This document shows positions 32,428 through 46,574 of a stretch of 53,636 nucleotides of DNA, one piece after another (position 1 is the first letter of the stretch; each line of letters begins with the position of its first letter). The DNA comes from a virus: the IMG/VR virus record IMGVR_UViG_3300009181_000097, positions 1 through 53,636 of that record; one strand, 5' to 3'. A program made the position numbers and the translations under genes. The notes below the pieces were generated by a model. The model did no database searches and was not told where the DNA came from. It worked only from the letters and a program-made list of their open reading frames with translations.

Positions 32428-32430
32428 GCG

Positions 32431-32649
32431 ATGATTGAGCCAGGGCAGCTTCGACGCTGGAAGTCCGACGGTCTTGCAGGAGTCGGAACTCCGGCGGAGT
32501 CCCTGCTCTTCATGACGGTCCGTCCCGATCAGATGACATTCTCCTCAACAGTCACCGACAAGATCTGGTGGGTCCTCTCTAATGGTGGGGAGAGGTGGTT
32601 CTTCGCTGATGACATAGAGAACGAAAGTGAGATCGTAGGAAAGGAGTGA
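32431..32649 (+). CDS. PGD-family small protein, PGQLRRW subtype
   Basis: 72 residues. IEPGQLRRWKSDG opening, KIWWVLSNGGERWFFADDIE ending. Same subtype as 29451. Ends three bases before the next GTG. Confidence 0.7.
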   Translation: MIEPGQLRRWKSDGLAGVGTPAESLLFMTVRPDQMTFSSTVTDKIWWVLSNGGERWFFADDIENESEIVGKE

Positions 32650-32652
32650 GCG

Positions 32653-32862
32653 GTGAAACCCGGAGATCTCGTCAGGTTCTACATAGGCACACGCCCCTCC
32701 ATCATCGGGCTCGTCATCGGTACCAGACTCGAGAACCTTAGTATCACTGGTCAGGGTGTGGTGTACGAGGTCCTCACTCCGGAGGACGGTGTTCTGTCCC
32801 TGACGGATCTCGCCCTGCAACCTGTGCAAGACGGGACTGAACCTGGTATGATTCAGGAGTAA
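32653..32862 (+). CDS. PGD-family small protein
   Basis: 69 residues, GTG start. MKPGDLVRFYIG, IIGLVIGTRLEN, VVYEVLTPEDGVLSLTDLALQPVQ. The final QD codons carry GTGCAA of the next promoter, so coding and promoter overlap. Confidence 0.75.
   Translation: MKPGDLVRFYIGTRPSIIGLVIGTRLENLSITGQGVVYEVLTPEDGVLSLTDLALQPVQDGTEPGMIQE
32824..32852 (+). promoter_or_regulatory. GTGCAA-N17-TATGAT promoter
   Basis: GTGCAA 32824-32829 inside the 3' end of the previous PGD gene, 17-nt spacer ending TGG, TATGAT 32847-32852; AAGGAG before ATG 32872. Confidence 0.75.
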
Positions 32863-32871
32863 GGAGACGGA

Positions 32872-33090
32872 ATGAAGCCGGGTGATCTCATCATGTTTGC
32901 ACGGCCGAATCTAATGGAAGAGATCGGTGAACATCCCAACTGGGAGAGGGCCAAGATCGGGCTCTTTCTGGAGGTCACCGCCCGCCGTCCGGGCGATGAG
33001 AAGTACGGTGATGAATGGTTGGTACTACATAAAAATGAACGATGGTCGGTCCCCAGCACTTGGTGCCGACCCGTCAAGGAGAGCGAATGA
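32872..33090 (+). CDS. PGD-family small protein
   Basis: 72 residues. MKPGDLIMFARPN, KIGLFLEVTARRPGDEK, EWLVLHKNERWSVPSTWCRPVKESE. Stop overlaps the metallophosphoesterase start (ATGA). Confidence 0.78.
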   Translation: MKPGDLIMFARPNLMEEIGEHPNWERAKIGLFLEVTARRPGDEKYGDEWLVLHKNERWSVPSTWCRPVKESE

Positions 33091-33761
33091 AGGTCTGGCA
33101 CATCTCTGATACACATGGTTCGCATGGTCAACTCATCGTACCCGAAGGGGTCGACTGCGTCATCCACAGCGGGGACGCCTCGAACTGGCGTGACCCGTAC
33201 CGCAACGAGTCGGAGCTCCGTGCCTTCATCGACTGGTTCGCGACGCTCCCGATCCCGACGAAGATCTTCGTCCCGGGTAACCACGACACATCCCTCGAGA
33301 AGGGTCTCATCACCCGTGAGCTCGTCGAGCACCGGAAGATCCACCTCCTCATCAACGAGGAGATCGTCATCGACGGGCTCCGGATCTGGGGATCTCCCTT
33401 CAGCCCGCGCTACGGCGACTGGGCGTACATGAAGGATCGTGGGACGATCAACCGGATCTGGGACAACATTCCGGAGGGACTTGACATCCTGATCACGCAC
33501 GGGCCCCCGTATGGGGTTCTGGATGCCACCTACGACCACCACAATAAGGTGGAGCTGGTGGGCTGCAGCGCCCTCCGGAAGCGTGTTGCTAAGGCCCCAC
33601 CACGGTTCATGCTGTTTGGTCACGTCCACTCGACGGATGACATCCGGAACGCAGGCACCCGGACGGTGGGCGGCCTGCCGACGGTCTTCAGCAACGGGTC
33701 CTGCTGCGACGATGGGCGGATGGGCACGGTGACGAGCCACGGCAACATCCTGGAGGTCTGA
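33087..33761 (+). CDS. Calcineurin-like metallophosphoesterase
   Basis: 224 residues. Metal ligands in order: D8-x-H10 (ISDTHG), Asp30 in HSGDAS, Asn65-His66 in PGNHD, His in ILITHGPPYG, and GHVH near 190. Length and layout fit the MPPED/YfcE-like branch of metallophosphoesterases, which hydrolyse cyclic nucleotides or phosphodiesters. Flanked on both sides by PGD genes. In phages such enzymes can process RNA ends or cleave cyclic-nucleotide defence signals (inference). Confidence 0.9.
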   Translation: MKVWHISDTHGSHGQLIVPEGVDCVIHSGDASNWRDPYRNESELRAFIDWFATLPIPTKIFVPGNHDTSLEKGLITRELVEHRKIHLLINEEIVIDGLRIWGSPFSPRYGDWAYMKDRGTINRIWDNIPEGLDILITHGPPYGVLDATYDHHNKVELVGCSALRKRVAKAPPRFMLFGHVHSTDDIRNAGTRTVGGLPTVFSNGSCCDDGRMGTVTSHGNILEV

Positions 33762-33958
33762 TGAAACCAGGTGATCTTGTCCAGATCAAGAAGGGTGTCC
33801 AAGGCCGGGGTGAGGTCGGAGTCGTGATCGGCGAGGTCGAGGATCACCAATGGAACAGCAGCTTCACCCTCCTCGTGGTCCTGTTCCACGATGGTCTTCG
33901 TCGCATGCACCCCTACAACCTCCAGGAGCCCGATGGGCAGGGGTCGGAGAAAGCATGA
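33761..33958 (+). CDS. PGD-family small protein
   Basis: 65 residues. MKPGDLVQIKKG, EVGVVIGEVEDHQ, FTLLVVLFHDGLRRMHPYNLQEPDG. Start overlaps the previous stop. Confidence 0.75.
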   Translation: MKPGDLVQIKKGVQGRGEVGVVIGEVEDHQWNSSFTLLVVLFHDGLRRMHPYNLQEPDGQGSEKA

Positions 33959-34128
33959 AACCCGGTGATCTGATCTGGCTTCGAGATGACATGGGAAAAC
34001 TCACACCTGCGATCTACATCTCCGAGGCACCATCGTATTTCAGCGGACCTCGTATCAGGGTCCTGCAGGGAGGGGTCGTATTCGATATTGGAAAGCACAG
34101 GACCAGGGTGATCAATGAAACCGGGTGA
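33955..34128 (+). CDS. PGD-family small protein
   Basis: 57 residues, one of the shortest. MKPGDLIWLRDDMGKL, AIYISEA, IRVLQGGVVFDIG, ends RVINETG, encoded by the 14-nt junction with the next gene. Confidence 0.75.
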   Translation: MKPGDLIWLRDDMGKLTPAIYISEAPSYFSGPRIRVLQGGVVFDIGKHRTRVINETG

Positions 34129-34312
34129 TCTCGTTCGCATCAAGGCTGATCACGTCAGAATGGAGGACTGGGAGCAATTCTCGGGTAAGATCGGCATGAT
34201 AGTCTCCGAGGGCTGCGCGCTGGGTCCCAAAAGCATTCTCTTCGATGTCCTGATCGGGGGTGAGCGTGTCGCTGCTTTCGAGTACGAGCTGGAAAACCTC
34301 TCGTGCAGCTGA
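34115..34312 (+). CDS. PGD-family small protein
   Basis: 65 residues. MKPGDLVRIKADHVRMED, KIGMIVSEG, ILFDVLIGGERVAAFEYELENLSCS. Starts in a 14-nt overlap with the previous gene. Confidence 0.75.
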   Translation: MKPGDLVRIKADHVRMEDWEQFSGKIGMIVSEGCALGPKSILFDVLIGGERVAAFEYELENLSCS

Positions 34313-34488
34313 GGCCCGGTGATCTCGTTCACGTGACGGCTGACAATTTCTACTTCGGTCTCGGTCTCATCCTGGCACACCCACATGAGGATCTTCCCGG
34401 GTGCGCTTTCTACGTGATGACGCTGGACGGGAAGTGCATGTACTATTTTGGGGACGAGCTCGAACCCGTGCAACCCGACCCGCTATAG
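34303..34488 (+). CDS. PGD-family small protein
   Basis: 61 residues, GTG start with 10-nt overlap. LRPGDLVHVTADNFYFGLGLILAHP, FYVMTLDGKCMYYFGDELEPVQ. The final Pro-Val-Gln codons carry GTGCAA of the next promoter. Confidence 0.72.
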   Translation: MQLRPGDLVHVTADNFYFGLGLILAHPHEDLPGCAFYVMTLDGKCMYYFGDELEPVQPDPL

Positions 34489-34496
34489 GGTATGAT
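34468..34496 (+). promoter_or_regulatory. GTGCAA-N17-TATGAT promoter, leaderless
   Basis: GTGCAA 34468-34473 in the previous gene's 3' end, 17-nt spacer, TATGAT 34491-34496; ATG 34503 is 7 nt after the -10. Confidence 0.72.
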
Positions 34497-34502
34497 GGTA
34501 TC

Positions 34503-34880
34503 ATGATCAAGAAAGGATACACCGCCGTCGCCCTGCACCGGGGCTCGCAGGCCTGGAAGAACAGGGTCTCGTACAAGAACTTCGAGACCCTGCCTCTAAA
34601 CACATGCGCCGAGGTTGTCAGCGTCAGAAGGGACAAGTGGTACAACTTGCGTCCGAGAGCGATCGTCGGGGACCAGATCTACACCCTCTCAGCAAACGAC
34701 TGGGCGTTCATCCCGGTCCGGGTCGGAGAGCTCCGTCGCTGGAAGGACGGGCGTGCGGCACCCTTCGTTGTTATCAGCATCGACTCCCGCGGTTGCAGCA
34801 GCATGGGCCCTGATGGAAAGTTTGACGTCTCTCACAGGTACGTCGAGGACAACTCGGAGGTGATCAGTGAAACCGGGTGA
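34503..34880 (+). CDS. Double PGD-family protein (two fused domains)
   Basis: 125 residues, twice the family size. Unit 1: MIKKGYTAVALHRGS to ANDWAFIPV (~1-75). Unit 2: VRVGELRRWKDGRAAPFVVISIDSRG (~76-125), the PGQLRRW subtype. It looks like two tandem genes joined by loss of the intervening stop/start. Ends in a 14-nt junction. Confidence 0.75.
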   Translation: MIKKGYTAVALHRGSQAWKNRVSYKNFETLPLNTCAEVVSVRRDKWYNLRPRAIVGDQIYTLSANDWAFIPVRVGELRRWKDGRAAPFVVISIDSRGCSSMGPDGKFDVSHRYVEDNSEVISETG

Positions 34881-35088
34881 TCTCATGCAGATCTCCGATC
34901 CTGAGGGGACTTATGTTGTCAATCTCTCGACGGGCTACGCAATGTCACAACCGTACCCGGAAGGGACCCCTGCGATCGTCCTCGGCCTTCACGAGGTGGC
35001 TCACCTACGTGGTGAGCGCAAGATCCGTGTCCTCGTCGATGGCATACAGGGCTGGGTCTATGAGTCCGGGCTGGAGCCTGTCGAATGA
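34867..35088 (+). CDS. PGD-family small protein
   Basis: 73 residues, GTG start inside a 14-nt junction. MKPGDLMQISDPEG, AIVLGLHEVAH, KIRVLVDGIQGWVYESGLEPVE. The stop is followed in the same frame by the broken copy at 35085. Confidence 0.75.
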   Translation: MKPGDLMQISDPEGTYVVNLSTGYAMSQPYPEGTPAIVLGLHEVAHLRGERKIRVLVDGIQGWVYESGLEPVE

Positions 35089-35298
35089 AACCCCGGTGAC
35101 CTCCGACGCTTCGACACAGATGACGAGCATCTGGGGACTGACATGTTCTCAGGGAAGCTCGTCCTCCTCCTCAATCTTGAGGGTGATCGCTGGGTGCCCG
35201 AGGAGCCGTACTGGGGTGCTCTCATCGGGGATTGGCGCTGCCATCTCAGCGAGAGCATGCTCGAGCGCTGGTCGAGTCCCATGCAAACGGGCGGGTGA
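35085..35298 (+). pseudogene. Frameshifted PGD-family gene
   Basis: ATG AAA CCC C then GGT GAC: an extra C makes the ATG frame stop after four codons, while the next frame encodes an intact PGD body, GDLRRFDTDDEHLG, FSGKLVLLLNLEGDRW, ending SSPMQTGG at 35298. No normal start serves that body except an internal ATG at 35143. It is either a recent pseudogene, a +1 frameshift site (CCC-C), or a sequencing insertion. The downstream promoter box lies in its end. Confidence 0.65.
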
Positions 35299-35309
35299 TG
35301 TGGTATGAT
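35281..35309 (+). promoter_or_regulatory. ATGCAA-N17-TATGAT promoter
   Basis: ATGCAA 35281-35286, 17-nt spacer ending TGG, TATGAT 35304-35309; AAGGAG then ATG 35333. Confidence 0.75.
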
Positions 35310-35332
35310 TAGTGCATAAGGAGCGAGACAAC

Positions 35333-35530
35333 ATGAGCATCCCATACATCGAAGTCAGCCCAACTGATGTCTACCACTGCGAGGAAGACGTCTTCTGGAT
35401 CGTCACCAAGGACGAGGACGGCGAGCTTGCCCGAGCAATGTTCTACAGTCTCGATGACGCCAAGGAATACCTCAGCAAGGTGAAGGGCATTCCACTCGAA
35501 GACATCAAGATCATCACTGGCGAGGAGTAA
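35333..35530 (+). CDS. Hypothetical acidic small protein
   Basis: 65 residues: SIPYIEVSPTDVYHCEEDVFWIVTKDEDGEL, then a helix. Compact alpha/beta look, not PGD-like. First gene of a run of small genes to 36384. Confidence 0.7.
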   Translation: MSIPYIEVSPTDVYHCEEDVFWIVTKDEDGELARAMFYSLDDAKEYLSKVKGIPLEDIKIITGEE

Positions 35531-35532
35531 AC

Positions 35533-35718
35533 ATGAAGATCACTCGTAAAGCCCAAAAGATTGGCACTCTCTGGAGCGCCATCCAGTCCGAGAAGAGCCA
35601 GACGAAGATCATCAAGGAGCTGGAGGACGGGTTCATCCCGGTGTGGCTCGCACGTGACTGCTTCGAATACGCCTGGCGGATGCTCAAGATGAAAGAAGAG
35701 AGGGAGATCGGAGTATGA
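35533..35718 (+). CDS. Hypothetical small helical protein
   Basis: 61 residues, basic and helical (MKITRKAQKIGTLWSAIQSEKSQ), with Trp-rich second half. Ends ATGA into the next gene. Function unknown. Confidence 0.65.
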   Translation: MKITRKAQKIGTLWSAIQSEKSQTKIIKELEDGFIPVWLARDCFEYAWRMLKMKEEREIGV

Positions 35719-36086
35719 CACACACCTGGGAACAGCACTACGGAATAAACCGATTCGACCTCTCCGGACCCCGAGGATTCCCATCCGGTGGGATCGGCTG
35801 GATCACCCGAAACCCAGATGAGCCGGTTGAGGGGGCCAAGGTGGTGGTCACCCGCGGCCCCATGGGCTACATCACATCGATGAAGAACATCGACCCACCC
35901 GGATCGAAGTGGCACTGGCGGGTCTGGTGGCACACCTGGACTGACGGGAAGCTGGTCATTCACACGGATGAGATTCGCCATCCCAAGCGGGCTGACGCAA
36001 TGAAGTCACTGGAGAACAGGTTCGGCATCGATCCTTCGGACGTGACAGAGAAGAAGTGGGAAGGCAACCTGTCGAGTTACGAGTGA
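35715..36086 (+). CDS. Hypothetical Trp-rich protein
   Basis: 123 residues: HTWEQHYGINRFDLSGPRGFPSGGIGWITRN, VVVTRGPMGYITSM, WHWRVWWHTWTDGK. Beta-rich and aromatic. No family recognised. Confidence 0.65.
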   Translation: MTHTWEQHYGINRFDLSGPRGFPSGGIGWITRNPDEPVEGAKVVVTRGPMGYITSMKNIDPPGSKWHWRVWWHTWTDGKLVIHTDEIRHPKRADAMKSLENRFGIDPSDVTEKKWEGNLSSYE

Positions 36087-36090
36087 TCCG

Positions 36091-36384
36091 ATGACCTTCC
36101 TCGATAAGCTCCAGTCCCACAAGGGCGGACTCATCCGCCTGAAGACCCAGCTCTTCTGGTATGGAGGTCGAGGCTGGGACAACGCTCCGGGTCGGATCTG
36201 TCTCATCCTGGATGCCACTGCCGCTGGCCGCGAAGCCGCCATGACCGCCTGCGCCGAATGCAACGACCTCGACACCACCATACGCCCCGACGCTGCACAC
36301 CTCCTGATCGACGGGCAGCCCGCTTGGATCTGGGTGGCTGAGCAAGACATAGAACTTCTTGTAAATGATCAACCAACAAGCTAG
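36091..36384 (+). CDS. PGD-related SH3-like small protein
   Basis: 97 residues. GGLIRLKTQLFWYGGRGW, GRICLILDATAAG, AAHLLIDGQPAWIWVAEQDIELLVND: same strand order and ending as the PGD family but without Pro-Gly-Asp. Distant member. Confidence 0.6.
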   Translation: MTFLDKLQSHKGGLIRLKTQLFWYGGRGWDNAPGRICLILDATAAGREAAMTACAECNDLDTTIRPDAAHLLIDGQPAWIWVAEQDIELLVNDQPTS

Positions 36385-36402
36385 AATATAAGAGGAGCAA
36401 AC

Positions 36403-37695
36403 ATGACCAATCCCTGTCCAAACTGCGGTGTCGCAGGTCCCAACCTCAACTGCAACCTCCACCCAATGCCCAAGTTTGGAAACATGACCAATCCCTGTAA
36501 GGAAATCCCGCTACCCATCATTGATCGCATTCAGGCCCAGGACCGTGAAAAAGACCTCCTTGCCGAGATCGGTCGACTCTCTCTTCAGCTCCGCGCCTCT
36601 GAGCTCCACACCCACACGCTGCAGGCGAAGCTCTCGGATCTTGAGGCCGATGGCGTCATCGATCACATGGGTCGAAAGCTTCCGCTCCCTGGTCACCACA
36701 AGGACTGCCCACACGGACAGAACGGATGGGCAATGTGCACCTGCGATGAACTGAAGGCTCGGGACATCAGGAACGCCAAGGCACTCGATCGGATCTTCGA
36801 TGACCTGATGGACGATGATGAGGGTCCCAAGAAATGCCTCCATGGCAACACGGAATGCAAGCGCTGCAATCCAACCCGAGCCATCAAGACACCCGAAGGC
36901 AATCCATTCCTCCCAGCTGCTGAGTTCTCCAGGATTCGAATCGAGGACAACAAGGAATGCGGTCACTCCGAGTGCAACTACCAGCGACGGACAGGCCGGA
37001 CCACGGCGATGGTGATCAAGGCCCTGGAGTTTGTCAAGGTGAACACATCAAACGATGTAGGCGTGGTCATCGATGTCCATGATCATTCGATGAAGAAGCA
37101 CATCAAGAAACTCCTTCTGCACTATGCTGATGAGATGGACGTCTCGCACGGCGCGCTCCTCCGGGTGACATTGAGAACGCTTGATGAGCATCGTCTTCGG
37201 TACACAGTTGGCCAGTTGAACCTCCGTGACAATGCCCTTGATGACGCGAAGAGCTTCAAGGATCTCGTCGATGAGGGACAGGAGCTCCGCAAGAAGTTTG
37301 ACAAGGACACGGCAGGAATGCGCGGGGCACCCAACTGTCCCAAGTGTGGTGACACCGGTCTCATCTCATATGGCCCAGGTACCCGCGGAATGAAGCGCTG
37401 TGACTGTCAAACCCAACGACTGGTCGAGGAGGATGAGTTCACTCGAGTCATGAATGAGACCTACGAGCATCTTCCGCCTCGACCACGCGATCCCCGACAG
37501 GACCTGAAGCCCGGCGATCATGTCCGATTCGAGATCGAGGGGGTCATCAAGGAACGACAGAGAGCAGGCATCTTTCAGGACGAGGACGGAAACGATTTCG
37601 AGCCCATCCAGTACGCCATCAAGGACTCCATCAACAGAATGACCTACTACGTCGGTTACCATCAGATCACCAAGAAGATTGGGAGTGTGGAATGA
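36403..37695 (+). CDS. Multi-zinc-ribbon protein with C-terminal PGD domain
   Basis: 430 residues. N-terminal CPNCGVAG/C and further Cys/His clusters (CPHG...CTC, CLHGNTECKRC, CPKCGDTG...CDC) suggest several zinc ribbons; a coiled coil lies near ~45-85. RRTGRTTAMVIKALE (~190-205) is P-loop-like but has Arg for the usual Lys. The last ~60 residues, DLKPGDHVRFEIEG to TYYVGYHQITKK, are a PGD-family domain. A possible DNA- or RNA-binding protein; the fusion may help place the PGD family near nucleic acid. Confidence 0.7.
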   Translation: MTNPCPNCGVAGPNLNCNLHPMPKFGNMTNPCKEIPLPIIDRIQAQDREKDLLAEIGRLSLQLRASELHTHTLQAKLSDLEADGVIDHMGRKLPLPGHHKDCPHGQNGWAMCTCDELKARDIRNAKALDRIFDDLMDDDEGPKKCLHGNTECKRCNPTRAIKTPEGNPFLPAAEFSRIRIEDNKECGHSECNYQRRTGRTTAMVIKALEFVKVNTSNDVGVVIDVHDHSMKKHIKKLLLHYADEMDVSHGALLRVTLRTLDEHRLRYTVGQLNLRDNALDDAKSFKDLVDEGQELRKKFDKDTAGMRGAPNCPKCGDTGLISYGPGTRGMKRCDCQTQRLVEEDEFTRVMNETYEHLPPRPRDPRQDLKPGDHVRFEIEGVIKERQRAGIFQDEDGNDFEPIQYAIKDSINRMTYYVGYHQITKKIGSVE

Positions 37696-37904
37696 GCTGG
37701 GATAAGATTCCTGAGACCGATCCTCTGTTTTCCAAGTGGCTAAAACGAGAGAACCTCGTCCACGATTTCAACCGAGTCCTCTGGCTGAACGACACATGCG
37801 GGTGCGCCGTGGTTTGCCTCGAGGGCCTGGCTCCGAAAGAGGATCACGAGTGTGAGTATGAAGATGAGCGAGACTTTCGACTTGTCAGTGCGATGGGTCG
37901 ATAA
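37692..37904 (+). CDS. Hypothetical small protein
   Basis: 70 residues, ATGA start overlap. WDKIPETDPLFSKWLKRENL, then DTCGCAVVCLEG and an acidic end. Three Cys, no clear zinc site. Unrecognised. Confidence 0.6.
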   Translation: MSWDKIPETDPLFSKWLKRENLVHDFNRVLWLNDTCGCAVVCLEGLAPKEDHECEYEDERDFRLVSAMGR

Positions 37905-38242
37905 TGCCGAAGCTCAAAGCAACTTGGTCGATTGACCACACCGATCGTGGTTATCACATGGACATCGAGCCCGGCGGTCTCTACGAGATCTGGCGGACAC
38001 TCGATGTCCATCCAAAGCCCACCATCGCGATCAGTCGAATCCCAGACCACCTGGACCACATCGAGATCTGGGAGGTGCTGGTCGATGGGATCCTGATCAC
38101 CCAGAGGGCAGGCAGGATCTTCAGGACCGGAACGGCAAAGCCTCCCCCTAGTAACATGGAGGCGATCATGTCAGCGATGAAGGAAGAGATTCAACATGTG
38201 GAAGACCAGAAGATCCTGAAACTCCTCAGTGAGATGACCTGA
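37904..38242 (+). CDS. Hypothetical protein
   Basis: 112 residues: KLKATWSIDHTDRGYHMDIEPGGLYEIWRTLDVH, HIEIWEVLVDGILITQRAGR, then a helical tail. The EPGGL string is not in family position. No domain recognised. TAATG overlaps at both ends. Confidence 0.65.
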   Translation: MPKLKATWSIDHTDRGYHMDIEPGGLYEIWRTLDVHPKPTIAISRIPDHLDHIEIWEVLVDGILITQRAGRIFRTGTAKPPPSNMEAIMSAMKEEIQHVEDQKILKLLSEMT

Positions 38243-38424
38243 TGCCCATGGACGACTGGCAGCTGAAGACGGCTCTGCAGGTCTGTGAGGCCGATCTTCG
38301 GGAAGAGGAGCGTTTCCTGGAGGTCGTTCTCAACAATGTGAAGATCTACCGTGCGAACATCCGGTCCCTCAAGAAGAAGAGGGAGAATATCCTGAAGAGG
38401 ATGAATGATGGGAGGACTGAATGA
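38242..38424 (+). CDS. Small coiled-coil protein
   Basis: 60 residues, one charged helix (WQLKTALQVCEADLREEERFLEVVLN) and a Lys/Arg end. Ends ATGA into a 31-residue gene. Confidence 0.65.
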   Translation: MPMDDWQLKTALQVCEADLREEERFLEVVLNNVKIYRANIRSLKKKRENILKRMNDGRTE

Positions 38425-38516
38425 CCCAGAACATCATTGACACCAACGGTCGTCCAGGATGGCGTGAGATTGCCAGACTGGCAGGATTCAACAAGGAGAC
38501 AGACAACGATGAATGA
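38421..38516 (+). CDS. 31-residue microprotein
   Basis: MTQNIIDTNGRPGWREIARLAGF... with ATGA overlap before and an 8-nt ATGAATGA overlap after. Could be one amphipathic helix (WREIARLAGF), slightly HTH-like. Function unknown. Confidence 0.55.
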   Translation: MTQNIIDTNGRPGWREIARLAGFNKETDNDE

Positions 38517-38805
38517 ATCATACAACTGCGTAGTTTCAAGTGAACTGATCAAAGACGTAGCTTTCTATCACTCTTATTCCTCAATCGATGCCCTTCGCGT
38601 CAGAATTGAAAAAGAGTCAGCCTTCGATATCATCTTTCACATAGATCGCTTTGATAAAGCACTCGATGAAGTAGACTTGAAGTTTAAACCTGACGGTTCC
38701 ATCTTGGCAAATTTTGGCGGCAGATTGGATTTTATGCTGTGTCATGAGAGCGAAGAGCACAAATTCAACCCTCGATGGGCAGTAGAACATGGTGGGGTCG
38801 AGTGA
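38509..38805 (+). CDS. Hypothetical protein
   Basis: 98 residues: VVSSELIKDVAFYHSYSSIDALRVRIEKES, FKPDGSILANFGGRLDFML. Somewhat higher Phe/Ser/Asn content than neighbours. Ends just before the array promoter. Unknown. Confidence 0.6.
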   Translation: MNESYNCVVSSELIKDVAFYHSYSSIDALRVRIEKESAFDIIFHIDRFDKALDEVDLKFKPDGSILANFGGRLDFMLCHESEEHKFNPRWAVEHGGVE

Positions 38806-38809
38806 TCCC

Positions 38810-38838
38810 GCGCAACAGGGGCGAGGGTATGGTACAAT
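38810..38838 (+). promoter_or_regulatory. GCGCAA-N17-TACAAT promoter, leaderless
   Basis: GCGCAA 38810-38815, 17-nt spacer ending TGG, TACAAT 38833-38838; ATG 38845 is 7 nt after. It heads the seven-gene PGD array. Confidence 0.7.
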
Positions 38839-38844
38839 AGGACC

Positions 38845-40061: not shown

Positions 40062-40266
40062 CCTCGTCAGGATCTGCACGCCGGAATACGACAAGGATTA
40101 TGCCGAGAAATACTGGGAACAGATCGGTCTTATCATCGAAGTTGGGGCCTACCCGAACCCGTTGAGAGTCCAGACACCGGTCGGTATCGCATGGTTCAAA
40201 CCTCGCGAAGTCAACCTTGTAAACGATACCACTGATGATTACGATAGAGACAAGGAGAACACATGA
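40048..40266 (+). CDS. PGD-family small protein, array 7
   Basis: 72 residues. MKAGDLVRICTPEYDKDYAEKYWEQIGLIIEVGAYP, LRVQTPVGIAWFKPREVNLVND. The end differs (TTDDYDRDKENT) since the next gene is unrelated and joined by ATGA instead. Confidence 0.78.
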   Translation: MKAGDLVRICTPEYDKDYAEKYWEQIGLIIEVGAYPNPLRVQTPVGIAWFKPREVNLVNDTTDDYDRDKENT

Positions 40267-40475
40267 GAAACTGGGGACAGATCGACCTGGCTGACATTCG
40301 AGATGAGGACATCCAGGATCGTGACAAGGCGATCATCGAGCTCTGGAATGTACTCGAACGGCACGTTAAGATGATTGATGCGACACGTCACCCGAGCGAC
40401 AGGGATGGGTCGCATCCCACTCTTGAGAAGTATCGCCTGTTTGTAAACGAGAACCGCGGACTGTATGGTTTGTAG
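40263..40475 (+). CDS. Hypothetical small helical protein
   Basis: 70 residues: MRNWGQIDLADIRDEDIQDRDKAIIELWNVLERHVKMIDAT. Charged helices, no PGD features. Function unknown. It closes the array operon. Confidence 0.65.
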   Translation: MRNWGQIDLADIRDEDIQDRDKAIIELWNVLERHVKMIDATRHPSDRDGSHPTLEKYRLFVNENRGLYGL

Positions 40476-40487
40476 GAAGGAGAACCC

Positions 40488-41078
40488 ATGAGTCAGAGAA
40501 TTGAACGAGACTGGTTGACCGAGGAGTCTATCCGTGAGCACATCAATGCCGGTGGGACACTGCTCAACAATGAGCAGGTAAGGGTCCTCCTCGATGAGAT
40601 CGATAGTCTTCGGAAGGAGTGCTACGAGGCGCATCAGGCCGGAATGGACCTCGACGAAGAGAATGATCGTCTTCGGAAGCTTGTCCCACCTGAGACCGAG
40701 CGTGGTCCCGGTTTCGTTGGGCCAGTCTACGCGGAGAAGGTGGTGGCTGAACGGGATGATGCCCGATATGAGCTCAATACCCTCTGTGAGGACATCCGTG
40801 TCCTGAAGGACGAGAACGATGACCTTCGGGACGAGGTGGGACAGCTGGGTGATATCATCTCTGCGATGAAGGCGAACACCAAGAGTGAGCACACCAACGT
40901 TCACTATGGGAAGGAAGAGTTCATCGGGATCGATGGCTACGGGCCCTTCAGCCTGAAGAAGCTCAGCAAGGACGAGTGGGAGGTTCGAATGCTCCAGGAG
41001 CGCGTGATCCTCTACAACAAGAAGGGTCGCCGCGTCCGGGCCCACATCGTTGATGGAAACCCAGAGGGAGATTGGTGA
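40488..41078 (+). CDS. Coiled-coil protein with C-terminal beta segment
   Basis: 196 residues after AAGGAG. Coiled-coil stretch ~25-125 (DEIDSLRKECYEAH, ENDRLRKLV, VKDENDDLRDEVGQLGDI). The C-terminal ~55 residues carry EWEVRMLQERVILYNKKGRRVRAHIVD. Unrecognised. TGATG joins it to the next gene. Confidence 0.68.
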   Translation: MSQRIERDWLTEESIREHINAGGTLLNNEQVRVLLDEIDSLRKECYEAHQAGMDLDEENDRLRKLVPPETERGPGFVGPVYAEKVVAERDDARYELNTLCEDIRVLKDENDDLRDEVGQLGDIISAMKANTKSEHTNVHYGKEEFIGIDGYGPFSLKKLSKDEWEVRMLQERVILYNKKGRRVRAHIVDGNPEGDW

Positions 41079-41323
41079 TGGGAAGAGGCAAGGCATACCG
41101 GAGAAGCAAGACCGAGTCCAAGAAGACCCGCGCGAAGGTGATCCTTCGGAAGCTAGGGTACGGTGAGGAGGGTCTGGAGAAGCGTGCGGGTCGATTCGTG
41201 GAGTCGCGGTTCGGCTGCAACTGTTGGCTGTGCCAGAACCCGCGAAAGCTCTTCAAGGGGAAGAACTCCGCGACCCTCACGCTGAAGGAGTACCATGCCT
41301 GGCTCGAGCGGGACGACGAGTGA
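41078..41323 (+). CDS. Small basic protein with CxCWxCxNPRK motif
   Basis: 81 residues, ATG 41078. Basic N-terminus (RRSKTESKKTRAK), then FGCNCWLCQNPRKLF and a helical end. The Cys-x-Cys-x2-Cys site followed by Asn-Pro-Arg-Lys is shared by short uncharacterised proteins of bacteria and phages (recall); likely zinc-bound nucleic-acid binding. Confidence 0.7.
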   Translation: MGRGKAYRRSKTESKKTRAKVILRKLGYGEEGLEKRAGRFVESRFGCNCWLCQNPRKLFKGKNSATLTLKEYHAWLERDDE

Positions 41324-41553
41324 GCGCGCACGCTGGGATTCGACTCGAATGGGGACCCAAGGAGATCGAGGATCTGCGTGAGCTCGTGGAGCACCTCAAG
41401 AGTGCCATCCAGGGGGCACCCTGCCTCGTCTCGCGTCCGGGTGAGGGCACATATGAATGCCGGATCGATTCACTCTGCAGGGTCTGCCAGTGGCGGCACG
41501 AGGTGAACGAGGAGCTGGTTGAGGAATGGGATCTGGAGGACGGGATCTGGTAA
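41320..41553 (+). CDS. Hypothetical small acidic protein
   Basis: 77 residues from GTG 41320 (GTGA overlap). LEWGPKEIEDLRELVEHLKSAIQ helix, then CRIDSLCRVCQWRHEV with three Cys, and an acidic Glu/Trp end. Possible zinc site. Unrecognised. Confidence 0.65.
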   Translation: MSAHAGIRLEWGPKEIEDLRELVEHLKSAIQGAPCLVSRPGEGTYECRIDSLCRVCQWRHEVNEELVEEWDLEDGIW

Positions 41554-41556
41554 ACG

Positions 41557-41585
41557 GTGCAAACCCGGGTAGGCCGTGGTATTAT
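41557..41585 (+). promoter_or_regulatory. GTGCAA-N17-TATTAT promoter
   Basis: GTGCAA 41557-41562, 17-nt spacer ending TGG, TATTAT 41580-41585; GGAGGAG then ATG 41603. Confidence 0.75.
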
Positions 41586-41602
41586 GATTGGAGGAGCAGC
41601 AA

Positions 41603-42724
41603 ATGAGCTATCTCAACGAATCACCACTGCAGGCCGCGCTTCGGTCGGGCTGGAACCTTCAGGACCTGGAGGCTCGGCTCGGCATCAAGTCGAAGCGCCA
41701 CCCCCGGTTCCCGAACCTCGTCCTCTTCGTCTACGACCAGATCGAGTCACCGAAGCTCGACCCGATCGTCCGCTCAGCGCGCGGTCACATCCTCGACGAG
41801 GACTTCAACTGGGACCACGTCTGCCGTCCCTTCGACCGGTTCCTCAACTGGGGCGAGGGCGTCGAGCAGGGTGCTCCGGTCCCGGACATCGGGAGCTCGG
41901 TCGTCTTCAAGAAGGAGGACGGTTCCCTCCTCAACATGTGGTTCTACCGCGACGAGTGGCACGTCTCCACCAAGGGATCCCCGGACGCCGGTGGTCTGGT
42001 CGGCGACAACCCGTTCACCTTCGCCGAGCTCTTCTGGCGGGTCTGGAACGGTAAGGGGCTCTTCGTTCCTCCAGTCACCGAGGAACAGTTCACCTTCTGC
42101 TTCGAGCTCTGCACCCTTCACAACCGGGTCGTCTGTTCCCAGCCCGAAGAACGAATCGTCCTCCTTGGTGCCCGTGTCAACGATAATGGGCGGGAGGTCG
42201 AGCCTGAGGAATGGGAAGACGATGGGCTGGAGGTCTGCAAGTCCTACGACCTCGGGAACATCGACGACATCGAATCGACCTTCAAGGAGCTCCCGGCTCT
42301 CGAGATGGAGGGCTACGTGGTGGCCCAGTTCCTCCCCGACGGTCGGGTGATCCGGGCGAAGGTGAAGCACCCAGGCTACCTCGCCATCCACCACCTGAAG
42401 GAGGGCAACTCCAAGAAGCGCCTCCTCGAGCTCATCCGGACCGGCGAGGAGGGCGAGTTCCTCTCCTACTTCCCGGAGTACGGTCCGCAGTTCGACGAGA
42501 TCCGTGGCAAGTTCGAGGCGCTCGTCTCCGAGCTCGAGGCTGCCTGGGAGGCGAATCGTGGGATCGAGAACCAGAAGGACTTCGCCCTGCAGGTGAAGGA
42601 CCTCCGGATGTCGGGTGTCATCTTCGGCGTCCGGAGGATGGGTGGGACGATCCGGGGCCGGCTAGCGGATGTTCCCATCGACAACCTGACGGCAGCCATC
42701 GGACTTCGTGAGGTGATCGTATGA
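41603..42724 (+). CDS. RNA ligase, T4 Rnl1-like
   Basis: 373 residues. Nucleotidyltransferase motif I Lys104-Glu-Asp-Gly107 followed by S (KEDGSLLNMWFY), motif III-like FTFCFELCTLHNRVV, motif IV LEMEGYVVAQF, motif V RAKVKHPGYLAIHHL. Length matches T4 Rnl1, which seals 5'-phosphate and 3'-OH RNA ends, especially tRNAs cut by host defences. A polynucleotide kinase partner was not seen here. Own promoter of the GTGCAA class. Confidence 0.9.
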   Translation: MSYLNESPLQAALRSGWNLQDLEARLGIKSKRHPRFPNLVLFVYDQIESPKLDPIVRSARGHILDEDFNWDHVCRPFDRFLNWGEGVEQGAPVPDIGSSVVFKKEDGSLLNMWFYRDEWHVSTKGSPDAGGLVGDNPFTFAELFWRVWNGKGLFVPPVTEEQFTFCFELCTLHNRVVCSQPEERIVLLGARVNDNGREVEPEEWEDDGLEVCKSYDLGNIDDIESTFKELPALEMEGYVVAQFLPDGRVIRAKVKHPGYLAIHHLKEGNSKKRLLELIRTGEEGEFLSYFPEYGPQFDEIRGKFEALVSELEAAWEANRGIENQKDFALQVKDLRMSGVIFGVRRMGGTIRGRLADVPIDNLTAAIGLREVIV

Positions 42725-42939
42725 CTCTTCGACCCGGACTCCTGGTGAAGCCGAATGAGCAGTATCTCAAGCTTCATCACCCCTGCCCCATCGACTGCCC
42801 GCCCGGCGTTCTCGTTGAACGGGTGGCCACCCCTCGACGCCTGCATCCAGGAGCACACGGCTCTTGGCGGGTCCTGTGGCGTGATGAGAAGCATCTGATG
42901 TTCGAGAATGAATTTGAGGTGATCGATGGACAGGTATGA
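42721..42939 (+). CDS. PGD-family small protein (PGLLVKP variant)
   Basis: 72 residues, ATGA overlap with RNA ligase. LRPGLLVKPNEQYLKLHHPCPIDCPPGVLVERV, SWRVLWRDEKHLMFENEFEVIDGQV. Ends in a 14-nt overlap with an unrelated gene. Confidence 0.72.
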   Translation: MTLRPGLLVKPNEQYLKLHHPCPIDCPPGVLVERVATPRRLHPGAHGSWRVLWRDEKHLMFENEFEVIDGQV

Positions 42940-43135
42940 TATTTTCGCGACGATCCTCCTGATCGTGGCATCGGTCTTCATCTTCGCTAATTTGGGATCA
43001 AATCTAAAGCAGCAGCAGGCTTGCGATGCTGCCTGCGCCCCTGCACGGTCCATTACTCCCGTCGTTGGATTCGAAAATATCTGCCTCTGCGATGAGGGTC
43101 ACGGAAAGTGGCGACGACAGGAACTCGCTCGTTGA
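42926..43135 (+). CDS. Small Cys-rich membrane protein
   Basis: 69 residues. One hydrophobic span (IFATILLIVASVFIFANLG, ~6-25), then ACDAACAPARSI and NICLCDEGHGKW with five Cys and a basic end. Exported tail predicted, perhaps disulphide-bonded or metal-bound. I recall similar short proteins in other phages. 14-nt overlap at its start though it is not PGD-like. Confidence 0.72.
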   Translation: MDRYDIFATILLIVASVFIFANLGSNLKQQQACDAACAPARSITPVVGFENICLCDEGHGKWRRQELAR

Positions 43136-43154
43136 GCAGCATAGTTAGGACGTA

Positions 43155-43229
43155 ATGTTCGGCAACTTCTCATACGAGATTCTTAGGATCCTCGAGGGGA
43201 TATGGTCGAAACGTAATAAGGGAGTCTGA
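43155..43229 (+). CDS. Possible 24-residue peptide
   Basis: MFGNFSYEILRILEGIWSKRNK..., with TAGGA upstream, fills most of the gap 43136-43235. Amphipathic helix with basic end. Too short to be sure. Confidence 0.35.
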   Translation: MFGNFSYEILRILEGIWSKRNKGV

Positions 43230-43235
43230 TTACTG

Positions 43236-43826
43236 ATGCTTAGCATTCCATCCGAAACATTTCGTCGCGCTCAGTCGGCAGCGTGGATAGCGCCCGCGGG
43301 AGAATTCGAGGGTGTTCCGGACGAGATGATGCATGATGATCTCTCGGCTTACTTTCCCGGTGTTCCCCTCGATGAGGATTATCCTTCCAATTTTGCTGTC
43401 AACCAACTAGGCTACGTGAAGGTCAGCAATCCGTTCGAGATGCTCTGGAGCGGGGAGCGAAGCGACCACAGGGGTCGATCGATCGACCGCGACGCTCAGT
43501 TCGAGACGATGGCTGGTTTCACCGCGGGGGCCCTCATACACTACAAGAAACGTGGGATTCCAAACTGGGTTCCTGGACGTGGTGATCCGACCGAATGGGA
43601 GATGCGGGTCCTCCAGCCCGGTCGTCCCATCTCTCGGACAACTGTCGGAGACTTTGTCGAGAGGTACGGAAGCCGTGAAACGGGAGACCGCATGTACGCG
43701 GCGCTTGGGATGAACGAACGTAGAATCAGGTCTCTTGTCAGGGAGATGCTCAGTGAGGGTCGCCTTTCTTACCCGCGCTTCCTTGACGAGGGCGGGAAGC
43801 TCATCCTAGCAGGATGGATAATCTAG
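43236..43826 (+). CDS. Virion-type protein with C-terminal targeting-like helix
   Basis: 196 residues. Pro/Asp-rich N-terminus, SVIDRDAQFETMAGFTAGALIHY-type middle, and C-terminal NERRIRSLVREMLSEGRLS, the recurring basic amphipathic helix but at the end. Has an isolated position among enzyme genes. Possible internal virion protein. Confidence 0.65.
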   Translation: MLSIPSETFRRAQSAAWIAPAGEFEGVPDEMMHDDLSAYFPGVPLDEDYPSNFAVNQLGYVKVSNPFEMLWSGERSDHRGRSIDRDAQFETMAGFTAGALIHYKKRGIPNWVPGRGDPTEWEMRVLQPGRPISRTTVGDFVERYGSRETGDRMYAALGMNERRIRSLVREMLSEGRLSYPRFLDEGGKLILAGWII

Positions 43827-43830
43827 ACTC

Positions 43831-43859
43831 ATGCAATCAGCCCACGGGCGTGGTAATAT
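43831..43859 (+). promoter_or_regulatory. ATGCAA-N17-TAATAT promoter, leaderless
   Basis: ATGCAA 43831-43836, 17-nt spacer ending TGG, TAATAT 43854-43859; ATG 43866 is 7 nt after. Confidence 0.72.
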
Positions 43860-43865
43860 TCCATC

Positions 43866-44240
43866 ATGCAGCGGACCGAAGTACCCGACCTTGAATCATA
43901 CGAGCAACGCGAGGACTGGCGTCAGATCTTGTACAGGACCGCGTGGCCCATCGACGCGCCCCCGCCGGATTTCCAGAGATCATGCGAACCCGCCCTCAGA
44001 CCCGGCGATCTCGTCGGATGGGTGGAGCACCCGGACGCAAAGTTGAAGGATGGGTGGTACACCCCCATGTGGAAGGACAAGCACACGGGACTTGTCCTTA
44101 TGACCCGTTGGGTGCTCGCGGATTGGGCACGCTTTGACAAGAAAGAACCCAAGCTCTACCCAGAAGCTCTCATCCTGTGGGGAGACGGAGGGACAACGAA
44201 CACAAGTCACCCGTGTCTGAAGGTGCTCAATGATGGATAA
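43866..44240 (+). CDS. PGD-family protein with N-terminal extension
   Basis: 124 residues. ~40-residue extension (MQRTEVPDLESYEQRED...), then ALRPGDLVGWVEHPD, TGLVLMTRWVLADW, EALILWGDGGTTNTS and CLKVLND. Leaderless. Overlaps the next gene by 11 nt. Confidence 0.72.
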   Translation: MQRTEVPDLESYEQREDWRQILYRTAWPIDAPPPDFQRSCEPALRPGDLVGWVEHPDAKLKDGWYTPMWKDKHTGLVLMTRWVLADWARFDKKEPKLYPEALILWGDGGTTNTSHPCLKVLNDG

Positions 44241-44481
44241 GCGCGTCGTGATCGGTAACTTTAAGGGAATCAAAGATGGCAGCCTCGTCCACGTCAAGTA
44301 CGGGTCGCCCGACCTGCCGGTTGGGGTGATCGCCCTTGTTATAAATCGATCCCTCAATGCCATGATGCTCGGTGAAGGAGAGGGGGAACGCTACGATGAG
44401 ATCCTCGTCCTGCTTCACGGTGGTAAGAGACACTACGTCAGCGTGAATGACGTTGATATCATGGAAGAAGATGTCGAGTAG
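44230..44481 (+). CDS. PGD-family-like small protein
   Basis: 83 residues, ATGATG start. GIKDGSLVHVKYGSPDLPVGVIALVINR, EILVLLHGGKRHYVSVNDVDIMEEDVE. Gly-Ser replaces Gly-Asp. Same final strand and acidic end. Confidence 0.68.
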   Translation: MMDKRVVIGNFKGIKDGSLVHVKYGSPDLPVGVIALVINRSLNAMMLGEGEGERYDEILVLLHGGKRHYVSVNDVDIMEEDVE

Positions 44482-44668
44482 GATAAGCCCAGGTGATCTC
44501 GTACGTCGAAAGTACCACATCAGTCGCCCTGACTGGAAATGGGTTGATCTGGGTCTCGTTCTCGATCGTGACAACAACGGGTTTCTCGACGTCATATGGG
44601 GTTCGAAGATTGAATCCATGTGGGACGACTACGATCTCGTGAGGGTCGAGAGCCAAGAGGAGATATGA
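44471..44668 (+). CDS. PGD-family small protein
   Basis: 65 residues, ATG 44471. RISPGDLVRRKYHISRP, DLGLVLDRDNNGFLDVIWGSKIESMWDDYDLVRVESQEEI. Confidence 0.75.
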   Translation: MSSRISPGDLVRRKYHISRPDWKWVDLGLVLDRDNNGFLDVIWGSKIESMWDDYDLVRVESQEEI

Positions 44669-44880
44669 ATCCGGGCGATCTCGTCGTGATTCAGAACGAG
44701 GACGTCCTCGAGTCGTTCATGCTTCGTGAGTCACCATCGGACGGGATCCTCTATGGAGTCCTGATTGAGCTCCACGAGATCGACCATGATCGACCGCAGG
44801 ACGACGTCTGGATCGTCCTGATAAATGACCAGCTCTACAAGATGCTCAGGTGGGAATTCGAACCATGCAACAAAAGGTGA
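44665..44880 (+). CDS. PGD-family small protein
   Basis: 71 residues, ATG 44665 by ATGA overlap. MNPGDLVVIQNEDVLES, LYGVLIELHEIDHD, VWIVLINDQLYKMLRWEFEPCNKR. Last codons hold the ATGCAA of the ligase promoter. Confidence 0.75.
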   Translation: MNPGDLVVIQNEDVLESFMLRESPSDGILYGVLIELHEIDHDRPQDDVWIVLINDQLYKMLRWEFEPCNKR

Positions 44881-44893
44881 TGTGTGGTAGTAT
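44865..44893 (+). promoter_or_regulatory. ATGCAA-N17-TAGTAT promoter
   Basis: ATGCAA 44865-44870, 17-nt spacer ending TGG, TAGTAT 44888-44893 (a TATAAT overlaps at 44891 with spacing 20). AAGGAG before ATG 44915. Confidence 0.72.
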
Positions 44894-44914
44894 AATCTGG
44901 AAGGAGCAAACCAT

Positions 44915-46240
44915 ATGAATACCATCGAGATCCTGGAAGCGCTTGAATCCGACAACAGCCGACTCTTCAAGGAGGCTCTCCTCCGGGAACACAAGGACAA
45001 TGAGACCCTGCGGCGGGTCCTCGTCATGGCGGCCGATCCCTGGAAGAACTGGGGCGTGATCAAGTACGACAAGGTCGATTTCTTCGGATCGCACGGTCAC
45101 GGGGACGTGATGCTCAACGCTTTCATGGACCTCCTGGACCTCCTCAACGACAGGAAGATGACGGGTTCCAAAGCACGTGGAGCTGTCGAGGGCTCCATCT
45201 CTGCTTTCGATGATCTGGGCAAGAAATGGGCCGAGCGTCTCCTGTGGCGCAACCTCCGGTGCGGCGTCTCGGCGACAACGATCAACAAGATCTGGCCCGG
45301 CTCGGTGGTCCCCTTCGCGGTGGCGCTCGCGGACACGCTGACCACGAAGGGCGTCAACGGCGACTTCACGATCACCGATCCGATCAAGTATCCCGTCCGG
45401 GTCGAGGCGAAGCTCGACGGGCTCCGATGCATCGCCGTGAAGCATAACGGTGAGGTGACCATGTTCACCCGGAGCGGCACGCCCCTTGAGACCCTGCCCA
45501 GGATCAAGGCGGCGATCGAGGCGCTTCCGGCTGACAACATCGTCCTCGACGGTGAGGCGATGGCTGCCTCCTGGGAGGACTCTGCGTCAGTCATGATGTC
45601 GTCAAAGACGAAGAAAGATGACGGAGACATGCGCTACCACGTCTTCGACTGCGTTCCATTCGCAGAGTGGCAAGCGCAGGCTTCAAAGCTCACCTATGAA
45701 GAGCGTCTCCAGAATTTGGTGGCGGCGATCGGTGCAGGTCCTGCTGTTGCAGCAGGTCCGTTCCGCTACGTCAAGTCGAAGACCTGCGCTAATGAGACTG
45801 AGCTTCGTGAGTTCTACAGTGGGTGTCTCGATGAGGGATACGAGGGGGTGATGCTGAAGGATACTGCAGCTCCCTACCGGTGGAAGCGTTCCGACGCGAT
45901 CCTGAAGCTCAAGCCTGTCGCGACAGAAGAGGCAGTCATCGTCGGTTGGTACGAGGCAAAGGAGTCCACGAAGCGGGCTGGGCAGTTTGGTGGGTTTGTG
46001 ATCCTGACCCCCAACGGTGTCACAACCCGGGTCGGCGGGGGCTACTGCGATGATCTGAAGGACAGGATCTTCAGCAACGGCCCTGACACCTACATCGGTC
46101 GGATCGCTGAGTGCGAGCACCAGCCCCCGTTCACCCCCGACGGCAAGATGCGTTTCCCGGTCTTCTGCCGGTTCAGGGACGCTGCCGATGTCGATCCCAA
46201 GGTGCTCGCAGCCTACGAGCGGATGAATGGACAGGGCTGA
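44915..46240 (+). CDS. ATP-dependent DNA ligase, T4 gp30-like
   Basis: 441 residues. N-terminal helical DNA-binding part; adenylation Lys166 in EAKLDGLR; motif III HVFDC, IIIa, motif IV EGVMLKD, motif V LKLKPV; C-terminal OB fold with TRVGGGYCDDLKD. Seals nicks using ATP, joining Okazaki fragments after primer removal by the 6901 exonuclease. Its stop overlaps a PGD gene by 14 nt. Confidence 0.94.
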   Translation: MNTIEILEALESDNSRLFKEALLREHKDNETLRRVLVMAADPWKNWGVIKYDKVDFFGSHGHGDVMLNAFMDLLDLLNDRKMTGSKARGAVEGSISAFDDLGKKWAERLLWRNLRCGVSATTINKIWPGSVVPFAVALADTLTTKGVNGDFTITDPIKYPVRVEAKLDGLRCIAVKHNGEVTMFTRSGTPLETLPRIKAAIEALPADNIVLDGEAMAASWEDSASVMMSSKTKKDDGDMRYHVFDCVPFAEWQAQASKLTYEERLQNLVAAIGAGPAVAAGPFRYVKSKTCANETELREFYSGCLDEGYEGVMLKDTAAPYRWKRSDAILKLKPVATEEAVIVGWYEAKESTKRAGQFGGFVILTPNGVTTRVGGGYCDDLKDRIFSNGPDTYIGRIAECEHQPPFTPDGKMRFPVFCRFRDAADVDPKVLAAYERMNGQG

Positions 46241-46511
46241 GCCCCTCTTCTGGGTCGATGAGCCGAAGTACGGCTGCTCCCAGCCCGTCCGTGTGGGTGA
46301 TCTCCTACGCGTGAAGGATTCCGGTTACGGGTGGAAGGAGGAGGGCAAGATCGTGCTGGTTCTGGGGGCGATCGACCCAACCTACACGAGGTTCGTTCCA
46401 GAGTACCCCGATGATCTCTTTCCTCCCGATGATCCCGAGGAGTGCCTTGTCATCATCGATGGTCATCGCACCACGATACGAATCGAGTACCTCGAAGCGA
46501 TCGTCGATTAA
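46227..46511 (+). CDS. PGD-family protein coupled to DNA ligase
   Basis: 94 residues. N-terminal MDRAEPLFWVDEP, then VRVGDLLRVKDSGYGWKEEGKIVLVLGAID, ECLVIIDGHRTTIRIEYLEAIVD. Starts in a 14-nt overlap inside the ligase 3' end. Confidence 0.75.
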   Translation: MDRAEPLFWVDEPKYGCSQPVRVGDLLRVKDSGYGWKEEGKIVLVLGAIDPTYTRFVPEYPDDLFPPDDPEECLVIIDGHRTTIRIEYLEAIVD

Positions 46512-46548
46512 TGATGCGGTGATAGGCCCTCGAAGCGCCGCGAAGCCG

Positions 46549-46555: not shown

Positions 46556-46574
46556 GCCCGTAGGACGGCTGAAC

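Follow-up and report, generated by a model that had tools for sequence, protein, structure and literature searches.

Integron gene cassettes are exchangeable one-gene units, held in an array with a repeated joint. In phages, the "mobile regulatory cassettes" termed PeSL elements were reportedly the subject of work by Arbiol in 2010 and by Comeau in 2014. In T4-type phages these elements, a promoter plus a stem-loop located between genes, are held to mediate the shuffling of small genes (PMC4503421). The same paper portrays the "ORFanage" of cyanophage S-PM2 as dozens of small open reading frames (ORFs) with no assigned function, whose order is unstable in metagenomes (PMC4503421). Phage SPO1 is described as carrying a host-takeover cluster, in which 26 genes target processes of the host (PMC6873191). 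The locus characterized here belongs to an uncultured phage and lies in the linear IMG/VR virus record IMGVR_UViG_3300009181_000097, whose 53,636 bases constitute the window. It is an island of small genes which, in our judgement, rather probably represents a modular array of SH3-like small proteins that can be swapped at a shared joint and are likely to serve as binding modules. What sets it apart from the PeSL elements, the ORFanage, and the SPO1 cluster is a dual-coding joint inside one fold family.

The small genes constitute one divergent paralogous family. A hidden Markov model (HMM) seeded with 16 ORFs, nearly all featuring an x-G-D-L start, was iterated over six frames; at E<1e-3, once the sequences of relatives had been added, it recovers 28 members, every one of them on the + strand of the window and none on the − strand, the first at 12034-12249, the last at 51432-51701, and 24 of the 28 inside 28909-46511. 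An earlier note had put the number of these genes at about 35; the family and its location hold, whereas the count falls to 28 plus a handful of borderline ORFs. These uncounted ORFs are 29451, 29555, 34715, and 21959 (E 0.03 to 15 when a window-only iteration reached its final round), 43866-44240, which the window-only iteration picked up but which lies above E<1e-3 once relatives are added, and ORF 19544, which fails the same cut-off. That a single paralogous family is present, as the note had claimed, is borne out by the profile search and by a leave-one-out control, in which each member was removed from the model together with all members scoring at least 45 bits to it, and the rows of relative G013—near-duplicates of those of G012—were dropped. 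Recognition succeeds at E<1e-3 for 27 of the 28 members and at E<0.05 for all 28, with the best − strand decoy at E=0.6 and with some leakage retained, since the members were themselves recruited by profile. At the DNA level, the 17-mer GATGAAGCCAGGTGATC occurs 14 times in the window with up to 3 mismatches, against a shuffle mean of 0.20. Pfam, PHROGs, NCBIfam, and PADLOC return only stray weak matches for the family, several of them to SH3-type Pfam domains; the five NCBIfam matches concern single members (best, ArlG, E 0.00018) and are not considered meaningful. Megablast of 30001-46000 against phages gave no match, tblastn of two members against phages gave none at E<=1 and one chance-level match at E 8, and a sequence search of the PDB gave nothing below E 0.07. 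A description of the family was not found in titles and abstract starts of the open-licence literature, a search that argues only weakly for its absence.

Where members stand in tandem, the overlap is often exactly 14 nt, and this joint carries two messages. The C-terminal LEVI-DEAR-stop of the upstream gene is at the same time the ribosome-binding site (RBS) and start of the next gene (CTGGAGGTGATCG-ATGAAGCCCGGTGA): a typical joint reads CTG GAG GTG ATC GAT GAA GCC CGG TGA (L E V I D E A R stop) in the upstream frame and ATG AAG CCC GGT GAT (M K P G D) in the downstream frame. Stretches of the window and of relatives G002, G003, and G004 contain 76 members that have a start codon; in 33 of these the overlap with the upstream ORF measures 14 nt (that ORF being a family member in 27 cases and another gene in 6), and in 12 it measures 4 nt. 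A simple gene caller places the 14-nt overlap in 19/40 pairs having a family member downstream versus 10/231 other pairs. The glycine codon of the x-G-D motif is GGT in 30/30 overlapped starts because the stop codon of the upstream gene forces it; outside the 14-nt overlaps GGT occurs 20 times, GGC 8 times, and GGA once (n=29), and these 9/29 starts with GGC or GGA indicate that the motif is also kept by the protein. Of the members with a 14-nt overlapping downstream ORF, 12/42 have a strong Shine-Dalgarno sequence (GAGGTGAT or GGAGGTG) in the codons of their C-terminal tail, versus 2/79 of those without, and a 4-mer Shine-Dalgarno occurs in 32/42 versus 26/79, both near-duplicates G012 and G013 being included in these counts. 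The "acidic LEVI end" emphasized in the earlier note is therefore present but in part the RBS of the next gene, driven by DNA rather than being a feature of the protein alone. Since the L-E-V that carries the Shine-Dalgarno forms strand 5 in the model of the 39852 protein described below, a barrel strand can double as a Shine-Dalgarno sequence. The junction 23-mer was found at 7 loci in bacterial genomes.

Models of two members predict an SH3-like small barrel. AlphaFold2 modelled the 39852 protein from a 68-row alignment of proteins of the window and its relatives at a predicted local distance difference test score (pLDDT) of 87.8, with strands at residues 6-9, 25-31, 46-50, 53-57, and 62-64; the divergent 46227 protein (pLDDT 81.9) shows the same five strands plus an extra N-terminal hairpin. 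In both models the five strands follow the SH3 order, with a tight β3-β4 hairpin and a short turn before β5, so that the SH3-like barrel inferred in the earlier note is what two branches of the family agree on. Structural matches in the PDB are mostly SH3-like barrels, namely YorP, KOW domains, PsaE, the variable chain of ferredoxin-thioredoxin reductase, Tudor, and ribosomal eL21. YorP of Bacillus subtilis (2heq), the best match of the 39852 model (TM 0.69, Z 7.6, root-mean-square deviation 2.3 over 60 residues), is likewise a small SH3-like protein but shares only 20% identity (Foldseek E 8.7e-3); we take it to be a single gene of the SPbeta prophage. In BFVD, many small uncharacterised phage proteins match structurally, one of them at E below 0.001. 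Pfam SH3 matches are weak: SH3_CYT4 in 3/68 members (best E 0.0021), and SH3-C_UBE2O, SH3_2, and SH3_3 in one each. The presence of the KOW domains of DSIF and NusG and of eL21 among the structural matches would fit proteins that are not general binders but KOW/NusG-like modulators, each matched to a phage transcript, to RNA polymerase, or to the ribosome and acting on transcription or translation. We regard this as unlikely: the matches are those of a common barrel with Z below 8, and an isoelectric point (pI) below 6 is found in 21 of the 26 window members considered (27641 and 35089, which lacks a start, were set aside), an acidity that argues against plain nucleic-acid binding for most members.

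How the small-barrel genes came to be assembled is indicated by comparison with relatives. Across phages, 10 records contribute 14 stretches with 121 members (both near-duplicates, G012 and G013, included), among which there are 17 reciprocal-best orthologue groups, denoted by O numbers. Identity to orthologues in other phages rises to 94%, whereas the best matches within the genome reach only 43.5, 40.4, and 40.0 bits (identities of 32%, 41%, and 36%); short local matches can exceed these identities. Judged by this divergence the within-genome paralogues are old, and the island seems to have been filled by exchange, not recent duplication. Similarity is largely confined to the genes themselves: in 34 orthologue pairs, compared without G013, without G015 (cut at its start), and without groups O15-O17, the 95th percentile of the 60-nt background identity (0.60) is exceeded by 31 bodies, 2 upstream 60-nt flanks, and 4 downstream 60-nt flanks. 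Gene order varies as well, O5 and O6 being adjacent in G002, separated by O1 in G004, and apart in G003; the phosphoesterase match and the O1 cassette, 6.1 kb apart in the window, are separated by about 0.55 kb in G012 and G013 and by 0.23 kb in G014. Several breakpoints coincide with start codons. Between relatives G004 (L057) and G022 (L110), the alignment runs at 94% as far as L057:11091 and resumes at 91% at 11289, the 197-nt gene O8 of G004 being absent ATG to ATG in G022, where the end of the upstream gene changes from IDETR to IDEPG; just upstream of this gap, three cassettes (10304-10907) are absent start to start between the same two. Homology of the window to G012 (92%) begins at 39852 and that to G014 (93%) at 39851, that is, at the start codon, and just upstream of 39852 identity falls to background (0.50 and 0.53 vs 0.51). 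O4 is absent as a separate gene in G014, G015, and G002, in which a single gene takes the place of the two in the window and G012; this O1 gene ends in a YDxxKE tail resembling that of the second gene (O4). Tandem order, a common strand, and a common junction sequence could in principle also be the residue of unequal crossing-over, by which one ancestral gene would have been duplicated in tandem in this phage. Such amplification is improbable: array neighbours are generally not each other's closest relatives, and the 17 cross-phage groups point to an interleaving of members from other phages. Recent tandem amplification was rejected on the low within-genome similarity as set against the close orthologues elsewhere.

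The proteins of the exchanged genes are under selection. In the 11 of 13 orthologue pairs whose synonymous divergence (dS) is measurable, the ratio of nonsynonymous to synonymous divergence (dN/dS) lies between 0.15 and 0.46, and the proteins are therefore under purifying selection. Conserved positions—G4, D5, L6, the strand hydrophobics, and G52—appear structural, and none is a candidate catalytic residue. The loops, by comparison, differ widely in alignment A2 (68 rows; 8 of the 76 reference members omitted): β1-β2 spans 7-43 residues, β2-β3 5-36, and β3-β4 2-3. In SH3 domains, the first two loops are the ligand-binding RT and n-Src loops. A conserved scaffold with two hypervariable loops, the lack of a candidate catalytic residue, and presence/absence variation together suggest a library of binding modules. 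The island would then most likely encode an exchangeable repertoire of mostly acidic binders aimed at proteins of the host or of defence systems. The roles that the earlier note proposed, as anti-defence decoys, RNA/protein adaptors, or regulators, are conjectural. In PADLOC, whose models cover defence and not anti-defence proteins, there were two stray matches, each to a single member (best E 0.0087). One might instead regard the cassettes as selfish or neutral filler, which persists without benefit to the phage because the junction makes insertion harmless. Members are indeed dispensable between relatives, and cyanophage S-PM2 is reported to have shed a similar block of small ORFs during culture and to have formed larger plaques (PMC4503421); given the selection seen in the dN/dS values, filler has little chance of being the explanation. 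That the common start and end are a mere artefact of junction DNA joining unrelated proteins is very improbable: the 14-nt overlap does force DEAR, DESR, or NETG ends against MKPGD or MKAGD starts, yet members outside such overlaps keep P-G-D-L with varied glycine codons, the profile covers the middle strands, the models of both branches agree, and leave-one-out recognition contradicts a junction-only origin.

The array of swappable small barrels may thus be pictured as follows. Each gene would be a cassette starting at ATG or GTG, the surrounding RTGAARCCNGGTGAYCT often holding the stop of the previous gene, and would often end in the strand 5 codons (L-E-V-I) that double as the Shine-Dalgarno sequence of the next. 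Because many cassettes carry the same short junction, a gene could be exchanged in frame: recombination at the junction, as the breakpoints suggest, would add, drop, or replace a gene while keeping the frame, stop, start, and RBS of its neighbours. The geometry of the overlaps further suggests that the array is probably translated by coupled re-initiation. A repeat of about 25 nt is within reach of phage annealing recombination. It is conceivable, at slightly less than even chances, that this hinge of about 25 nt—RBS, start, and stop as well as the last barrel strand and the first residues of the next protein—itself serves as the recombination homology, and that a population of large phages trades SH3-like binders from a shared pool, singly, in frame, and ready for translation, in an integron-like manner, without a dedicated recombinase or att site. 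The dual-coding 14-nt junction and the cassette exchange both go beyond the earlier note.

Several observations, however, weigh against this picture. Cassettes do not account for every change in the island, as DNA from outside the family, including an ORF of about 345 codons and a stretch of 2.4 kb, also distinguishes G004 from G022. In G014, G015, and G002, the edge of the single gene does not fall on the start itself but about 10 nt ahead of it, within the Shine-Dalgarno portion. The 14-nt overlap also joins some non-family genes (the 10/231 pairs above), 30/42 overlapped tails lack a strong Shine-Dalgarno sequence, and 10/42 lack even the 4-mer. Terminator-like sites in 32000-46600 exceed shuffles (19 vs 8.5, standard deviation 2.9), 13 of the 19 being on the − strand. 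As for the fold, structural matches are modest, with no PDB match at Foldseek E<=0.001, and the best VIA Z score of 7.6 stays under the tool's safe level of 8; phages phiPMW, pf16, and Pm5461, from which BFVD structural matches stem, have no family members by sequence. Finally, 7/12 and 2/10 records in two of the batches searched contained no members.

Despite similarities to the systems mentioned at the outset, the island differs from each of them. PeSL elements likewise are short repeated elements at gene borders of hypervariable regions; the repeat of the island, in contrast, lies inside overlapping coding sequence and constitutes Shine-Dalgarno, start, and stop. PeSL elements were rejected as an account of the island, since the array genes overlap and leave no intergenic DNA and since promoter-like sites are at chance level (5 vs 4.9; sigma-70 consensus scan only). 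The S-PM2 ORFanage shares the run of small ORFs and the unstable order, and its annotation in the S-PM2 record shows frequent 4-nt overlaps, but no 14-nt junction was seen in that region. Homology was rejected, as 0/43 of its ORFs match the family (best E 0.32); the one weak match in S-PM2 lies outside the ORFanage (E 0.0015) and contains an in-frame stop. The SPO1 takeover cluster is proposed, by analogy, as a functional counterpart of the island, from which it differs in having no member of the family at E<=0.01. Integrons resemble the island in their swappable one-gene units and repeated joint; in the island, however, no attC site or integrase was seen, although neither was searched for, and the joint is translation signal and coding sequence.

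Beyond the window, members occur in 19 of 28 different IMG/VR records searched in full, a figure that is no prevalence because the records were chosen through pattern or protein matches; the three batches gave 5/12, 11/11 (five repeated from the first), and 8/10 records with members. Lengths of 132-298 kb in 7 of the 19 member-bearing records make it probable that the window covers only part of a large phage. Record IMGVR_UViG_3300027754_004885 represents the same phage (99.99% over 14.6 kb). Ten of 11 annotated phages contained no family member, S-PM2 being the one with a weak match: phiPMW, pf16, Pm5461, T4, and SPO1 have none at E<=0.01, and the huge phages LR756502, LR745206, and LR756504 as well as Xanthomonas phage X1 and Lak-B5 none at E<=0.1 (0/5), despite a related topoisomerase.

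The members and one complete junction are listed in Table 1. The earlier note had placed members between or beside almost every enzyme gene; this pairing holds in the window but was not conserved in the single case examined, in which the closest relative of 46227 (40% identical) follows a family member in G003 and not a DNA ligase gene. At 35083-35298 the start reads ATGAAACCCCGG, one C beyond its siblings, which puts the ATG out of frame; the near-identical contig IMGVR_UViG_3300027754_004885 carries the same extra C, and a pseudogene, a frameshift signal, or a shared error are the alternatives. The arrangement at 27641-28075 is conserved in its G003 orthologue of group O7 (L056:7402-7830) and may be either a fusion or an internal start.

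Table 1. Family members of the window and a complete junction, with the evidence for each
Position	Strand	Feature	Evidence
12034-12249	+	Member, 71 aa, P-G-S start	Leave-one-out E 1.7e-7
27641-28075	+	Family domain plus C-terminal stretch, perhaps second domain or separate gene (ATG at 27890)	Leave-one-out E 3.6e-6
28909-29154	+	Member	Leave-one-out E 1.1e-4
29147-29428	+	Member, group O2	Leave-one-out E 1.7e-4
32431-32649	+	Member, P-G-Q start	Leave-one-out E 3.9e-5
32653-32862	+	Member, GTG start, Gly codon GGA	Leave-one-out E 2e-4
32872-33090	+	Member, group O3	Leave-one-out E 1.4e-9
33761-33958	+	Member O8, directly behind metallophosphoesterase	Leave-one-out E 2.9e-10
33955-34128	+	Member, overlaps 4 nt upstream and 14 nt downstream	HMM
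34115-34312	+	Member, 14-nt overlap upstream	Leave-one-out E 1.3e-11
34303-34488	+	Member O9, 10-nt overlap upstream	HMM
34867-35088	+	Member, GTG start, 14-nt overlap with upstream non-family ORF	HMM
35089-35298	+	Family ORF, ATG start out of frame (extra C)	Leave-one-out E 6.2e-4
36091-36384	+	Distant member O10, weakest of 28	Leave-one-out E 0.0034
38863-39102	+	Member O11, opens seven-gene tandem array	HMM
39089-39283	+	Member O12, 14-nt overlap upstream	HMM
39270-39488	+	Member, 14-nt overlap upstream	HMM
39475-39681	+	Member, 14-nt overlap upstream	HMM
39668-39865	+	Member, 14-nt overlap upstream	HMM
39852-40061	+	Member O1, structure predicted, 14-nt overlap upstream	HMM and model
40038-40066	+	Complete junction: GGAGGTGATC (LEVI codons, strand 5), ATG of 40048, TGA stop of 39852	
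40048-40266	+	Member O4, 14-nt overlap upstream	HMM
42721-42939	+	Member behind RNA ligase (4-nt overlap); own end overlaps non-family ORF 42926 by 14 nt	
44233-44481	+	Member without PGD	Leave-one-out E 2.2e-4
44471-44668	+	Member, 11-nt overlap upstream	HMM
44665-44880	+	Member, 4-nt overlap upstream, Gly codon GGC	HMM
46227-46511	+	Divergent member, structure predicted, 14-nt overlap with DNA ligase gene	HMM and model
50603-50821	+	Member behind HAD-like gene	Leave-one-out E 6.2e-8
51432-51701	+	Member O13, ahead of topoisomerase II	Leave-one-out E 1e-7

Other genes of the window include a phage-borne chaperonin (Cpn60, 7971-9566), a sigma-70-type factor (10284-11069), a UvdE endonuclease (17059-18075), an IrrE-like M78 peptidase (19749-20213), an OmpA-domain protein (25142-25663), and a topoisomerase II large-subunit-like protein (51759-53636, + strand) that is 54% identical to its counterpart in LR756502, a 642-kb uncultured huge phage. 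Two adjacent proteins at 48178-49466 (+ strand) share the start MYGR(F/I)SNFAGP and differ in their domains, Laminin_G_3 and PA14/GLEYA. Odd for a phage is a 66-aa protein resembling Flp/class III pilins (49467-49667, + strand; Flp1_like E 0.0029 and Class_IIIsignal E 0.0053, both below Pfam's cut-off), whose DNA is shared with G012 and G015 at about 83% conservation. An amphipathic stretch of the I-x-x-x-I-R-E-E-I-x-R-L type was noticed by eye in otherwise unrelated proteins, at the N-termini of 1441, 13574, 14252, 16624, and 49918 and at the C-terminus of 43236.

If modular exchange at the joint is what shapes the island, a phage could rapidly change its set of small, probably host-directed proteins, and the joint that makes them swappable would be a translation signal carried inside the protein fold. 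The 14-nt overlap combined with a terminal Shine-Dalgarno sequence would offer a search pattern for other such arrays, and the family itself would represent a natural library of small-barrel proteins with a conserved scaffold and variable loops.

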